DNA from: Halobacteriovoraceae bacterium
GTDB taxonomy: Bacteria; Bdellovibrionota; Bacteriovoracia; Bacteriovoracales; Bacteriovoracaceae
Length of the DNA: 35,107 bases
Assembly: GCA_002706205.1 (NCBI GenBank)
Contig: PAKC01000025.1
Location: 1 to 35,107, forward strand
Direction of reading: 5' to 3'
Of this stretch, positions 2,971 to 28,995 are shown piece after piece (positions within the stretch are counted from its first letter, which is position 1; the number at the start of each line of letters is the position of its first letter). A model generated the notes under the pieces. The model was not told the DNA's origin. It saw only the letters and a program-made list of their open reading frames with translations, and searched no databases. The position numbers and the translations under genes were made by a program.

Positions 2971-5736
2971 ATGAAGTTATGTTTCAATTTTTTGACATTC
3001 TTCTTACTATGCACAGCATTTGCTAGTAATCTTTTTGCCCAGTCATTAGTTCAAAAGTCTGAGAAGTCCTATTTGCGTTGGACAATATCTTCTTTAAAAG
3101 AACAATTAAAAATTAATAAGTCTCAAAATAAAGTTATTCTTCAAAGTATCGATGCTGAGTTTTTTGAAAAACTTTCAGAAGATATAGCAAAAATTTCTCG
3201 TAAAAAAGATTATCATTCAAGTTTTCGCTTCTTTGAGCCTAAAGTTCCAGGAGATGCTTACAAGTTAGAAGTTGTATTAAAAGATAATTCTATTGAGCTT
3301 TTTAATTTTTATAAATCAGATCAACAAGCTTATATTTTAGATTTTTGGGTTAATCAAGATGTCGTAGCGGTTAAAGAGGCAGCTGTCCAGGCCCCTCCTA
3401 AAGTGGCAAAGCTTAATACACCTCCTACAAAGACAAAAACAAAGCCTAGAGCTAAAAAGAAAACTTCAGACAAAGTTGAGAAAGTTTTAGCCGTTGATAA
3501 GACTGCTCGTCTTAAAGTTATTAACCCTGAGGAAGTGATTTCAAATCAAAGCAGTAAGGGGTATCGCGATTTTAGATATGGAGCAGCTTTTCTTTGGAAT
3601 TACGATGCTTTTATTCCTCCTTTAGCCGATGATATTTCTTTGAATATTAAAGCTCCGGACTTTTTGTATCATATTAAAGATAGAGAGTATTTAGCAGATA
3701 AAAAACAGGCCCATATGCAGCTTAATATAAACTTTTATCGCAAAGAGCAATGGGGTTTAATGACGAGATCAATTAAGCTTTATGAAGAGAAGTATGGAAG
3801 AGATAATAATAAAAATTTAAATGATTTTATGAAAGCTGTTTCAATGATTAAGAATGTCATTAAAACAAAAATTAAGCCAGTCTATTCCAGCAAAATGGAT
3901 GAAGCAGGGGATATTGTTCCTGCTAAAGACTTTTCGAAGGCTGGTGTGTTGGCAGCTGCGAGAAATATCCTCACTAATATTATTGATTCTTCTGAAGACT
4001 ATGAATTAAATAAAGCAGTTCTACGTTATTTAATTCAATATTCTAAAGATGAAAAAGATTATATTCAAGCTCTGAATTATGCTAAATCTCTTTATGTAAA
4101 AGCCTCTGAAGACTTTGATGATGAAATGATTATCTATAGCTCAAAAGTTATTTTAAATTCTTTAGCAAATTTAAAACAAATTGAAAAAATAAAAGAATTC
4201 TTAGGTAATAAAGCAGTTATGCGAGTTCTTCCTAAGCAAGTCGGCTTGGCCTATATTTCCTATGTTCATTTATATCAAGATGAAACATCCCAGGTGATAG
4301 CACAGTTTAAAACAAATCAAGCATCACTTGTTAAACCCATTCATCCCAGTATTCTTTTTAATACAGCAGAGTCATTTTTTAGACAAGGCGAATATAAAAA
4401 GGCAGTTAAACTTTTTGATGAACTCATTGATAAATATTCAAGTTTAACTAAAACAGGTCAAGCAAGGTTAAGGATAGCTTTGTCCTATGACTTATTAAAT
4501 GAAGATGTTGATAAAACTCTAAGATTATATCAAGATGCGATTAATAAGTCGTCAGACTTAAAAACTCGGTATGAAGCGAAAATGCGTTATGTCGGTTTAA
4601 GGGTTGCTAGAAATAAATCTTTAAATGATAAAGACGTAGAAACAATTGCGTTTTTACAAGCGACAGAGGGCGAGAGAAGAAATTTAGATCTTCAGTTAAA
4701 AAAGCTTTTATGGTTAACACGTCTGAGAACAATGTTGAGTTCAGAGAAGTATTCTGAAGCATTATCATATTTATCAGCGTTACCTTTAGATAATCTGAGA
4801 CAGATTGATCAAAGAACTTTTCATGGGGATGGTGCTGAGGTCGTTTTAGGAGTTATTCAAGAAAGTTATATTAAAGAAGATTATGCTAGAGCTGTTAAAC
4901 TCTGGGAAATTTATAAAAAACGATATAATAATAAGGTCGCAAGAAATCCTTATTTGAATTTTATCGTAGCAGACAGTTATATAAAATTAGGGTTATTTAA
5001 GTCTTATCAAAGAGTTCTTTCAGACTTAAAAAGTATTAATGAAAAACGTGTACGACGTTTCCCTTTATGGGTTAAACCTTATAAAAAAATATCATCAAGT
5101 GATTATGTTTTAGAGTTAGAAATAAACTCTCTGTTAAAACAAAATGATTATAAAGGCTTAGCGAAATTGTTGGAGAAAAATAAAAATAATAAGAATATAA
5201 ATTATAAATTTTACAATGGGCTTGTTTCCTATCATTTGAAAAAATATAATGAAGGGGTAACAAGTTTTGAATCTTTACTTGTTAAGCCTAATCTCAATAA
5301 TATTCTTACACCAGGACAAAATTTAACAATGCTGAAAGCCTATCTTGAATCTTTATATGAGTCTTCTGAACCCAAGGTGTTTCGTCGAAAAAATGCGGCT
5401 TTGACGAATGATTTGAGAAGAAATTTACGCCCAAAATACAAAGAGCTAGTTGGAAGAGCGGACTATTTATATATTGAATCACTTTTTTCTGAAGAGAATA
5501 TTAATTATGAGTTATTGACAGCTAAAACAGAGGAATTTTTAGCTGACTTTTCGCAATCTCAATATTTGATGAGGGTTAAGTATATTGGCGCTGTTGCCCA
5601 AATTAATAATCGCAATGAGAATAAAGGCAGGAAGCTTTTAGAGGAATTGCTAAATGATAAAAATGTACCGGAGTATTTAAAAGGGTTAGCGAGATCGGAG
5701 TTATCTACGCTTGAATTAAAGAATAAGACAATTTAA
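2971..5736 (+). CDS. Large exported TPR-like repeat protein
   Basis: N-terminal signal peptide (MKLCFNFLTFFLLCTAFASNLFAQS); helical TPR-like segments such as LFNTAESFFRQGEYKKAVKLFDELIDKY. Confidence 0.7.
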   Translation: MKLCFNFLTFFLLCTAFASNLFAQSLVQKSEKSYLRWTISSLKEQLKINKSQNKVILQSIDAEFFEKLSEDIAKISRKKDYHSSFRFFEPKVPGDAYKLEVVLKDNSIELFNFYKSDQQAYILDFWVNQDVVAVKEAAVQAPPKVAKLNTPPTKTKTKPRAKKKTSDKVEKVLAVDKTARLKVINPEEVISNQSSKGYRDFRYGAAFLWNYDAFIPPLADDISLNIKAPDFLYHIKDREYLADKKQAHMQLNINFYRKEQWGLMTRSIKLYEEKYGRDNNKNLNDFMKAVSMIKNVIKTKIKPVYSSKMDEAGDIVPAKDFSKAGVLAAARNILTNIIDSSEDYELNKAVLRYLIQYSKDEKDYIQALNYAKSLYVKASEDFDDEMIIYSSKVILNSLANLKQIEKIKEFLGNKAVMRVLPKQVGLAYISYVHLYQDETSQVIAQFKTNQASLVKPIHPSILFNTAESFFRQGEYKKAVKLFDELIDKYSSLTKTGQARLRIALSYDLLNEDVDKTLRLYQDAINKSSDLKTRYEAKMRYVGLRVARNKSLNDKDVETIAFLQATEGERRNLDLQLKKLLWLTRLRTMLSSEKYSEALSYLSALPLDNLRQIDQRTFHGDGAEVVLGVIQESYIKEDYARAVKLWEIYKKRYNNKVARNPYLNFIVADSYIKLGLFKSYQRVLSDLKSINEKRVRRFPLWVKPYKKISSSDYVLELEINSLLKQNDYKGLAKLLEKNKNNKNINYKFYNGLVSYHLKKYNEGVTSFESLLVKPNLNNILTPGQNLTMLKAYLESLYESSEPKVFRRKNAALTNDLRRNLRPKYKELVGRADYLYIESLFSEENINYELLTAKTEEFLADFSQSQYLMRVKYIGAVAQINNRNENKGRKLLEELLNDKNVPEYLKGLARSELSTLELKNKTI

Positions 5737-5759: not shown

Positions 5760-6698
5760 ATGTTTGCATCAGAATTAAGGTTGGTAGGAAATCACCCAAA
5801 GTTTATCAAGGCTATTGAATTTGCAGGAAATGTGGCAGTCACTAAAGCACCAGTTCTTATTGTTGGAGAATCTGGGTCTGGGAAGAAAACAATTTGTCAG
5901 TTCATCCATACAAAGTCGGCGAGATCATCATTACCTTTATTAACAGTTGATTGTTCTCAAGAGGCACAGACAGTTGAAAATGAAATTCTTGGTTATAGAG
6001 ATGAAGAAGGACGTTTTAATAAAGGTGTTCTTGAAAGATCAAATGGGGGATCAGTTATCCTATCCAATATTGATGCTTTAGATGAGAAATTTCAAAAGAG
6101 ACTCTATCAAATTTTACAAGAACTTTCTGATTATGACTTAGATGTTCGTGTCATGGCCACAACATCAAAGAACCTCTCTAAATACGTTGGAGCAGGAAGA
6201 TTTTATCGTGCCCTTTATACTTATTTCTCCGGTTCACAAATAACGCTTATACCTCTTAGAGAGCGCGACAGTGATATCGAAGAATTAGCAAGCTTTTTTG
6301 CAAATGAATACGCGAAAGAGAATAATAGAGGTGAAGTCAATTTTTCTGATGAAGCAAAAAAGAAAATCGCAAGTTTTTATTGGGCCCATAATGTTGCAGA
6401 GTTGAAGTCAGTGATTGAAAGTACAATTGAAAATTCTAGTGGTGAAGAGATTGATGTAAGCGCAATTGAGATTGGAGAGAAGAAAGCAGAAACGGTAGCA
6501 AATGATATCGATGAAGATGGAATGAGATTAATGTCTTTAAAAGAAGCTGAGAGACTTCTTATTAAAAAGGCACTTATTCATACTTCTGAAAACAGAACTC
6601 AAGCAGCAAAGATTCTTGGCGTCTCTATTAGAACATTAAGAAATAAAATTAATGAATATAGAGGTGAAGGAAATAATTACTTTGTAAACTTAAGGTAA
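5760..6698 (+). CDS. Degenerate sigma54-activator-like AAA+ protein with Fis-type HTH
   Basis: Walker A GESGSGKKT and C-terminal AAKILGVSIRTLRNKINEY; no REC domain, no GAFTGA, Walker B DE replaced by SN. Confidence 0.85.
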   Translation: MFASELRLVGNHPKFIKAIEFAGNVAVTKAPVLIVGESGSGKKTICQFIHTKSARSSLPLLTVDCSQEAQTVENEILGYRDEEGRFNKGVLERSNGGSVILSNIDALDEKFQKRLYQILQELSDYDLDVRVMATTSKNLSKYVGAGRFYRALYTYFSGSQITLIPLRERDSDIEELASFFANEYAKENNRGEVNFSDEAKKKIASFYWAHNVAELKSVIESTIENSSGEEIDVSAIEIGEKKAETVANDIDEDGMRLMSLKEAERLLIKKALIHTSENRTQAAKILGVSIRTLRNKINEYRGEGNNYFVNLR

Positions 6699-6703
6699 GT
6701 TTT

Positions 6704-7111
6704 ATGAACGTCAATGACAAAACATTACAAGCATTAGCTGCGGCGACAAAATTTCGTGAGATGAGACAAGAGATTATCTCATCTAATATCGCAAATAAAG
6801 ATGTTCCTGGTTATAAGTCCAAAAGAATAGACTTTGAAAAAGCTTTGGCCAGGGCCTTAGATGTTGATGGACAAATGGGAATGAATACTGATGGACCTCG
6901 ACATTATGATGTTGGTAGTGGTGGGTTTAATAATTTACAACCCGAAGTCTATGAAGACCCTAATGGTGTCGTAAGTGAAGATGGTAATACTGTCGATGTT
7001 CAAGAAGAGATGGCCTTAATGGCCGAAAATAAAGTGATGTATGATGCTTTAGTCCAGCTTATGAATAAAAAACTTGGACTGATGAAGTACACAATAAACT
7101 CTGAAAGGTAA
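6704..7111 (+). CDS. flgB: Flagellar basal-body rod protein FlgB
   Basis: SSNIANKDVPGYKSKRIDFEKAL and order before flgC. Confidence 0.93.
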   Translation: MNVNDKTLQALAAATKFREMRQEIISSNIANKDVPGYKSKRIDFEKALARALDVDGQMGMNTDGPRHYDVGSGGFNNLQPEVYEDPNGVVSEDGNTVDVQEEMALMAENKVMYDALVQLMNKKLGLMKYTINSER

Positions 7112-26457: not shown

Positions 26458-26984
26458 GATATTCATTAAAAGATATTTTTCTAGGAGTCTTTAAAACGGC
26501 AATTCTTTTGGTTTTTTTAGAAATATTCTGTTCTGCTATTTTGCCTGCATTTGGAATCCTAGAGTTTAAACCTGCTTTTAATGTTTTGATTATTTTATTT
26601 TTGGCGTTTAAGCTAGAGGCTCCTTTTTTACCTTTTCTTATTTTGTTTTTTCAGTATATTCATTCGGCTTTTTCTGTAGAGGGCTGGGCTTCAGGAACTC
26701 TGGCTGGAGTTATTATTGCTATGTCGGTTAAATATGTAAAAGATATGCTAAATTTCTCTACCGCTATTAGTACCATTGTTGTTGTTCAAATATTTCAGAT
26801 TGCATGGTTCATCCTCATTGCCTTTATTCTTTCTTTAAAGTTAGGTGATTTCTCTAATTTCTTTTCTATTTTTATAAAATATTTACCTGAAAGCTTTTTT
26901 CTTTCTTTAATATCTCACCACTTTTTTAAATTATTAGACAATTTCTGGAAGGTGGGAAAAAGTTCCCATGGGGTAAGATATTAA
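26454..26984 (+). CDS. mreD: Rod shape-determining protein MreD-like
   Basis: Small multi-TM protein between mreC and the PBP2 gene; overlaps mreC by 4 nt. Confidence 0.8.
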   Translation: MRYSLKDIFLGVFKTAILLVFLEIFCSAILPAFGILEFKPAFNVLIILFLAFKLEAPFLPFLILFFQYIHSAFSVEGWASGTLAGVIIAMSVKYVKDMLNFSTAISTIVVVQIFQIAWFILIAFILSLKLGDFSNFFSIFIKYLPESFFLSLISHHFFKLLDNFWKVGKSSHGVRY

Positions 26985-28995
26985 TGTTTGGTGATGAAGA
27001 ACTTATAAAAATTCATAAATCCAGAGCAACTCAAGTTGCTAATATTATCATATTCTGTTTTGCGATTGTTTTTATTAGACTTTGGTATTTACAAATTTAT
27101 AAAGGTGAACTTTATCATACATTTTCAATTCAGAACCGTTTAAGAGAAGAGACCGTTTGGGCCCCTCGAGGTATGATTTATAGTCGTAACGATCAACTTT
27201 TGGTGGATAATATTCCTCGTTTTGATGCTGTTGTTACGAGACAGTTTTTACATGATAAAAAAGAAACACTGAAAAGACTCTCAGAAATTTTACAAATGGA
27301 AGTAAAAGATATTGAAAAAATAATTAAAAAGAACTCTTTTCAGGCAAGATATCGCCCTATCATCATTAAGAAAAATATTGATCTAGAGGAAGTTGCTAAA
27401 ATTGAAACCGAAAATGCCTCATTGCCTGGTGTTTCAGTAGAGACTTTTATTAGTAGAGAGTATATCGATAAAGAAGTTGGAGCACATGCCCTAGGTTATA
27501 TATCAGAGATCTCTCAAGCTCAATTACCCAAATATCAAAAACGAGATAAAGTGGAATATAAGCTGGGTGACTTTATTGGGCAGTTTGGGATTGAAGAAAT
27601 AATGGATAAAACCCTTAGAGGTATTAATGGACATGAGTTTGTTGAGGTGGATGCTCTTGGAAGGAAAAAGAAGTATATAAACACAGATAACTTGTTTAAA
27701 GGTATTGAAAACAGGGCGCCTAAACCTGGGAATAATTTAAAATTAACACTTGATAGAGATATGCAAAAAGTTGCCTATAAGGCGATGGAAGGAAAGTCTG
27801 GCTCTGTTGTGGCAATCGATGTCAGCTCAGGTGAGCTTCTTACCATGATTTCAACACCAGCATTTGATCCTTCTAAGTTTTCACGTGGACTGACTCAAGA
27901 GTATTGGTCGTCATTAATTAATAATGAAGAAAAGCCAATGGGTGATAGAAGTATTCAAAATCATTTTCCTCCAGGATCAACTTTTAAACCTTTTACTGCA
28001 ATTACTGCTTTAGAAGAGGGATTAATTGATGAAAATTCAAAAATTCGTTGTCATGGATCTTTTCGACTTGGAAGAAGGGTGTACAGAAGCTGGAGAAGAT
28101 GGGGATCTGAAAAAGTGGATGTTACTGATGCCTTAAAAAAGTCGTGTAATATCTTTTTTTATAAAGTTGCTTCTGAAATGGATATCGACGTCTTGGCGAG
28201 ATATGCTAAAATGTTTGGCTTTGGCCGAAAAACAGGAGTGAGATTACCCAGAGAGGTTTCAGGCTTGATACCGACAAAGGAATGGAAGCTTAAAAGAAAT
28301 GGGGTTCCCTGGCAGCAAGGAGAGACCTTATCTTGTTCTATTGGACAATCTTACGTTTTGGTTTCAACTCTTCAACTGGCCAATGCTTATGCAGCAATAG
28401 CGACTAAAGGGAGATTATATAAACCTTATATTGTGAAAGAGGTTTTAGATAATCAAGGAAATATTTTACGTGCAACTCAACCTGAATTATTAAGGAGAAT
28501 CGAGTTACAACCAAAAACATGGGACCTGATTCACGAAGGTCTTTATAAAGTCGTTAATACGCCTAAGGGAACGGCTTGGTGGAGAAGAGGTTTTGGAAAT
28601 CAGATGGCCGGAAAAACGGGGACATCTCAAGTTGTTCGGGCCCAAAATGATGAAGAACTTTACTCAAAATGTAGTGAAAAAGAATATAAGTATCGGCATC
28701 ACGGAGTTTTTGTCGCTTTGCCCCTTATGACGATCCAAAAATTGCTGTTGCAGCCTTGGTTGAACATGGTTGTGGAGGCTCTTCTGCCGCGGCTCCTGTT
28801 GTCGAGAAGGTTGTTAATACTTATATGAAAAAATATTTGCCAGAAGAATATGAGGAAAATGTGGCAAAAGAAAAAGCTCAGTACAGTCGTTATTTGAAAA
28901 AAAGACGGCAAGAAAGAAAAAAGAAAGAAGAAGCTAAGAAACAACAAGAGGAGAGTGAAAGCTCATCACAGGTTGATGATTCACAAGAGGAATAG
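26984..28995 (+). pseudogene. mrdA: Penicillin-binding protein 2, reading frame interrupted by an apparent 1-nt deletion near 28717-28720 (ORFs 26984-28828 and 28756-28995 are two parts of one gene)
   Basis: PBP2 dimerisation and transpeptidase motifs STFK (PPGSTFKPFTAI), SCN (KKSCNIFFYKVAS), KTGTS; downstream frame continues as APYDDPKIAVAALVEHGCGGSSAAAPVVEKV. Confidence 0.88.

Follow-up and report, generated by a model that had tools for sequence, protein, structure and literature searches.

The window analysed here is a stretch of 35,107 nt (contig PAKC01000025.1) from a Halobacteriovoraceae bacterium, and the features described below lie on its forward strand. The gene under study (5760–6698) encodes a protein of 312 aa related to sigma54 enhancer-binding proteins (bEBPs); its start is preceded by AGGAGG, and its stop lies 5 nt before flgB (6704–7111), the distance to the flagellar genes given in the original prediction. 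flgB is followed by flgC, fliE, fliF, fliG, fliH and fliI, all named from translations and gene order. Upstream, a gene for a TPR protein (2971–5736; identified from its ORF, Pfam and gene order) is the first gene of the presumed operon. The window also encodes an intact REC-AAA+-HTH regulator at 222–1769, recognized by Pfam and by its place in the tree as a paralogue with a different HTH. Two more low-scoring bEBP-like proteins were seen in the same genome (L206, 1231–3207; L211, reverse strand, 1389–2888); their N-terminal parts are GAF-type or of another kind, and no GAFTGA could be seen on reading. A PBP2-like ORF at 26984–28828 has an apparent frame change near its end (about 28700), which could be an assembly error or a real frameshift.

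Pfam identified Sigma54_activat (83 bits, compared with 240 bits for the 222–1769 protein), AAA_lid and HTH_8 domains in the 5760–6698 product, and no REC domain. The AAA+ sigma54 interaction domain fold was recovered both by Pfam and in a structure model (mean pLDDT 88.7), which Foldseek placed among bEBP AAA+ domains with 7v2b (VpsR) in the matches; FleQ and VpsR chains matched the protein by fold and by sequence. The status of each motif was read from a per-position alignment with intact relatives, using PspF numbering. The Walker A segment GESGSGKK (residues 36–43; 5865–5888) is intact, with G36 present in 69 of 70 orthologues and E37, G39, G41 and K42 in all 70. YRDEEGRFNKG stands in place of GAFTGA, within a segment (ILGYRDEEGRFNKGVLE; residues 76–92; 5985–6035) that replaces the sigma54-contacting L1/GAFTGA loop according to both alignment and model. 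This replacement is shorter than the GAFTGA loop, conforms in most copies to the conserved pattern LG-x-RD-x-E-G-[RK]-F-x-[KR]-G and was modelled as a short beta-hairpin (strands 78–80 and 86–88, pLDDT about 95). The Walker B segment GSVILSNID (residues 97–105; 6048–6074) is degenerate, with S at the D107 position (where most members of the window's family have A or S) and N at the E108 position. The switch Asn has become D (PspF N64 position), and the sensor-II Arg of WPGNVREL has become A, with the Trp and Asn of that motif retained. Both canonical arginine fingers are gone (R162 and R168 each replaced by Y), not just one as had been thought; an invariant Arg sits one residue past the R162 position. 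Of the features of a sigma54-activating bEBP, the protein thus keeps the AAA+ fold but lacks GAFTGA, the switch Asn, the DE of Walker B, the canonical arginine fingers and the sensor-II Arg. It ends in a Fis-type HTH (residues 257–301; 6528–6662), nearly invariant in the 70 orthologues, and a family-specific tail terminating in YFVNLR (6663–6695), which intact relatives lack and in which F308, L311 and R312 are invariant.

The alignment and Pfam thus bore out the original prediction on the lost GAFTGA, the Ser-Asn in Walker B, the retained Walker A and Fis-type HTH, and the missing REC domain. Its expectation that remodelling of sigma54 holoenzyme should be beyond this protein, which draws on established bEBP biochemistry, is supported, and the degeneracy is greater than that described, the switch Asn and sensor-II Arg being lost as well. 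On the basis of sequence, Pfam and model, the gene product is referred to here as a pseudo-bEBP, that is, a FlbD-like, REC-less and predicted sigma54-incompetent AAA+ protein with a Fis-type HTH.

Each of the 129 genomes of the order that were searched gave matches to the pseudo-bEBP, and nearly all of them had an orthologue at 50–83 % identity. The genomes without a full-length orthologue were mostly incomplete assemblies, and no frameshifted or missing copy was established in a complete flagellated genome among those searched. flgB lies 1–51 bp downstream in 67 of 70 loci and the TPR gene lies upstream in nearly all. In the 70 aligned copies the degenerate positions are fixed or nearly so and the HTH is almost invariant, and both the degeneracy and the linkage to flgB, whose conservation the original prediction had proposed to check, proved to be general. 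The pN/pS was 0.08 for the HTH, 0.24 for the replacement loop and 0.23 for the Walker B segment, values that are rough because synonymous sites are close to saturated. The window's family has also acquired new invariant residues (R150 and the YFVNLR tail). The idea that orthologues might retain GAFTGA and Walker B, this copy being merely decayed, held in its first part, since such orthologues exist outside the order; inside it, however, the derived motifs are common to the aligned copies and under purifying selection, so the pseudo-bEBP is not merely decayed.

The locus order [TPR gene]-bEBP-flgB-flgC is common to most families of the Bdellovibrionota, and an intact FlbD-like activator occupies the same place in families f2, f5, f6, f8–f12, f14, f23, f25 and f26. 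Variants occur in otherwise intact members, L183 having GAFVGA with IDD and L169 having GAFTNA. GAFTGA is likewise absent in Bdellovibrionaceae (f3; 46 of 46 genes) and in f22 (19 of 19 genes, some of them sharing a genome). These degenerate proteins share their operon place and HTH with the window's family (f1), but they differ from it in having other deletions and, in many copies, in keeping the fingers and sensor II; f3 also retains the sigma54 promoter. At the f3 loci L188–L192, L267–L286 and L294–L298, no GAFTGA was seen, several copies had no recognizable Walker A and the sigma54 promoter was kept nearly throughout.

In the phylogenetic tree the flgB-linked family was separate from the paralogues of its own genomes (100/100), and by both synteny and clade the gene in the window belongs to the FlbD-like flgB-linked clade of the Bdellovibrionota. 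The window's family formed one clade on a long stem (1.52), f22 was nested beside intact members, and f1 and f3 were sisters at 91/93 on long branches. These positions suggest that GAFTGA was lost at least twice, perhaps three times; f1 and f3 could perhaps stem from one loss or from two. The ancestor would have been a REC-less FlbD-like sigma54 activator encoded before flgB across the phylum, and along the branch leading to the window's family the features for sigma54 contact and for coupling to ATP hydrolysis would have been lost, whilst Walker A and the DNA-binding domain were kept.

A sigma54 promoter (TGGCAY-N6-TGC) was found upstream of the TPR gene in 18 of 23 intact loci (about 0.04–0.08 in shuffles) and in none of the 85 loci of the window's family. 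The change cannot be put down to the disappearance of sigma54, since rpoN was present in 118 of 125 genomes of the order. The promoter was found in 0/3 and 0/7 loci of f22 and in 4/5 and 15/16 loci of f3, the two sets in each case being the same family, with the second scored with a slightly looser pattern. As Bdellovibrionaceae without GAFTGA retain the promoter (15/16), a strict link between the loss of the loop and that of the promoter does not hold across the phylum and was rejected.

The promoter region of the window's family contains a conserved block in which an element, C, is followed at a spacing of 19 nt by a sigma70-type −10 (51 of 67 loci vs 0.4 expected). In the window, element C (GAGTAAAATTTTCCTTT, 2864–2880), which may be bound by a protein or act as an UP-like element for RNA polymerase and which has no other exact match in its genome, lies 19 nt before TACAAT (2900–2905). 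Element B (GGGAAAAAAAATTCC, 2846–2860) is kept in similar form across the order. An element common to the intact lineages and f3, TGTCA-N5-TYGWC-NGG, has a weak copy (10/12) at 2831–2848; it was detected in 40/85 f1, 13/23 intact and 4/5 f3 loci, compared with 1.6, 0.5 and 0.35 in shuffles, although fewer than half of the f1 loci reach 10/12 and the counts are not independent, since the consensus was partly read from the sequences scored and the loci are related. The leader of the TPR gene contains a CsrA-site-like hairpin with AGGA in its loop (GGTTTAATAGGATGTTAAACC, 2919–2939) and a second such hairpin (2952–2964), weak in this copy, that holds the gene's ribosome site. AGGA-loop hairpins before this gene were enriched in the family (61 stems of 5 or more vs 3.6 in shuffles), and csrA was present in 12 of 12 genomes tested, including that of the window, which suggests regulation of the TPR leader by CsrA. 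The leader in the window, however, folds only slightly better than shuffles (z −1.4), and the window gave no Rfam matches. The original prediction had no means of seeing that other families have intact orthologues at this locus, that the promoter differs between sigma54 and sigma70-type, or that conserved elements precede the operon.

Genus g27 (G065–G068) and G064 (g26) gave no flgB, no FlhA and at most a weak fliF-like match, yet they keep the pseudo-bEBP with the same motif changes, so a purely flagellar role is not supported. Element C with the −10 at 19 nt was also kept in three g27 loci. The gene downstream of the pseudo-bEBP in these lineages encodes a protein of 422–531 aa whose N-terminus resembles FliF/YscJ (Pfam scores of 32, 23.5 and 59 bits, of which 23.5 is just under the cut-off). 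Such a diverged FliF/YscJ-like membrane protein was seen directly after the pseudo-bEBP at L138 (9955–11247), L136 (5669–6937), L052 (reverse strand, 3500–4993) and L050 (5939–7534). In the tree g27 stood beside the flagellated L022 and was not joined to G064, whose own place had weak support; this separation suggests two losses. On a broader and tentative view, in which our confidence is low, sigma54 activators at this locus would have become sigma54-independent regulators at least twice in the phylum, with the sigma54 promoter also lost in two of three cases, and in species that have no flagella the regulator and a FliF-like membrane protein would persist together as a module serving some non-flagellar task.

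The pseudo-bEBP probably, though by no means certainly, derives from FlbD and regulates its own operon independently of sigma54, acting at a sigma70-type promoter in the manner of NtrC of Rhodobacter capsulatus or Caulobacter and of VpsR. Selection on the HTH, Walker A and new loop, together with a sigma70-type promoter with conserved upstream elements, points to this reading, and bEBPs lacking GAFTGA are known to act at sigma70 promoters (PMC10274813). The promoter of the operon would have switched from sigma54 to sigma70-type in step with the loss of activator features; the pseudo-bEBP, probably as a nucleotide-bound oligomer, would bind the conserved elements between about −85 and −32, and its own presumably co-transcribed TPR-regulator-flgBC-fliE... 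operon would be regulated without sigma54. The element positions near −41 and −60 appear to suit activation slightly better than repression. Among the readings that the original prediction offered, that of a DNA-binding regulator fits best. Against regulation of its own operon, element C may instead serve as an UP-like element for RNA polymerase, it occurs at one promoter only whilst an HTH so conserved might serve more sites, and the loss of GAFTGA with a retained sigma54 promoter in Bdellovibrionaceae also weighs against the sigma70-type reading.

A plain DNA-binding repressor or roadblock is unlikely; here the HTH alone would matter, the AAA+ domain would be a dimer scaffold and the operon would be under negative feedback, corresponding to the repressing half of FlbD action, as in the repression of fliF by FlbD through ftr4 (PMC3930126). 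The constraint on the HTH is indeed far above that on the rest of the protein, and several Bdellovibrionaceae copies without a recognizable Walker A still have the HTH. In the window's family, however, Walker A does not vary and selection acts on the replacement loop, which indicates that the AAA+ domain still does something, and the elements are located before the −10, not over the start. It is quite improbable that the protein is an anti-activator, a pseudo-subunit that joins hexamers of an intact bEBP such as the 222–1769 product, so that sigma54-dependent transcription of flagellar genes is poisoned or tuned. The positions that serve the subunit interface (both canonical arginine fingers and sensor II) have been lost, despite the retained AAA+ fold and Walker A, and the HTH, not the AAA+ surfaces, is most constrained. 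rpoN and intact bEBPs are present, and an orthologue of the 222–1769 gene is near the pseudo-bEBP gene in part of the loci, including in a lineage without flagellar genes, but among loci whose flank is long enough just a portion have it beside the operon, and in many it was not found within the flank. The loss of the catalytic motifs might also mark a relic in slow decay, kept only by its operon context, but this is ruled out for practical purposes by conservation and pN/pS, the reading frame being intact in almost all genomes of the order that were searched, pN/pS lying well under 1, invariant residues having been gained and the gene being kept where flgB was not found.

Single bEBPs without GAFTGA were already known; here intact and degenerate orthologues share a locus with their presumed target promoter across a phylum, which would give a stepwise view of a sigma54 enhancer-binding protein becoming a sigma70-type regulator. 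If this is true, flagellar control at this operon in the mostly predatory Bacteriovoracaceae stands outside the sigma54 scheme. In the open-access literature, to which the search was confined (subscription journals lay outside it), no description of a pseudo-bEBP at the flgB locus was found.

The best NCBIfam match of the pseudo-bEBP was FlbD (NF050807; 186.6 bits, below the cut-off of 750). FlbD of Caulobacter crescentus, a flagellar bEBP that works on flagellar promoters both as a repressor and as an activator (PMC3930126, PMC3096577), is alike over the AAA+ domain and HTH but differs in having a REC domain, which the pseudo-bEBP lacks, and in activating sigma54 promoters. FliX, the partner of FlbD, was not found in any of the 12 genomes of the phylum searched (a control search found it in Caulobacter), and a FliX-FlbD system was rejected on this ground. 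NtrC of R. capsulatus and Caulobacter resembles the pseudo-bEBP in its deleted L1/GAFTGA and regulates sigma70 promoters (PMC10274813), as the promoter sequence suggests for the pseudo-bEBP; these proteins are, however, REC-bearing nitrogen regulators, and Caulobacter NtrC requires Walker A and B residues, whereas the pseudo-bEBP has lost Walker B. VpsR of Vibrio cholerae, which also has a bEBP fold without GAFTGA and acts at sigma70 promoters (PMC10274813), differs in its N-terminal receiver-like domain and in binding c-di-GMP, its likeness to the pseudo-bEBP being one of fold and sequence only.
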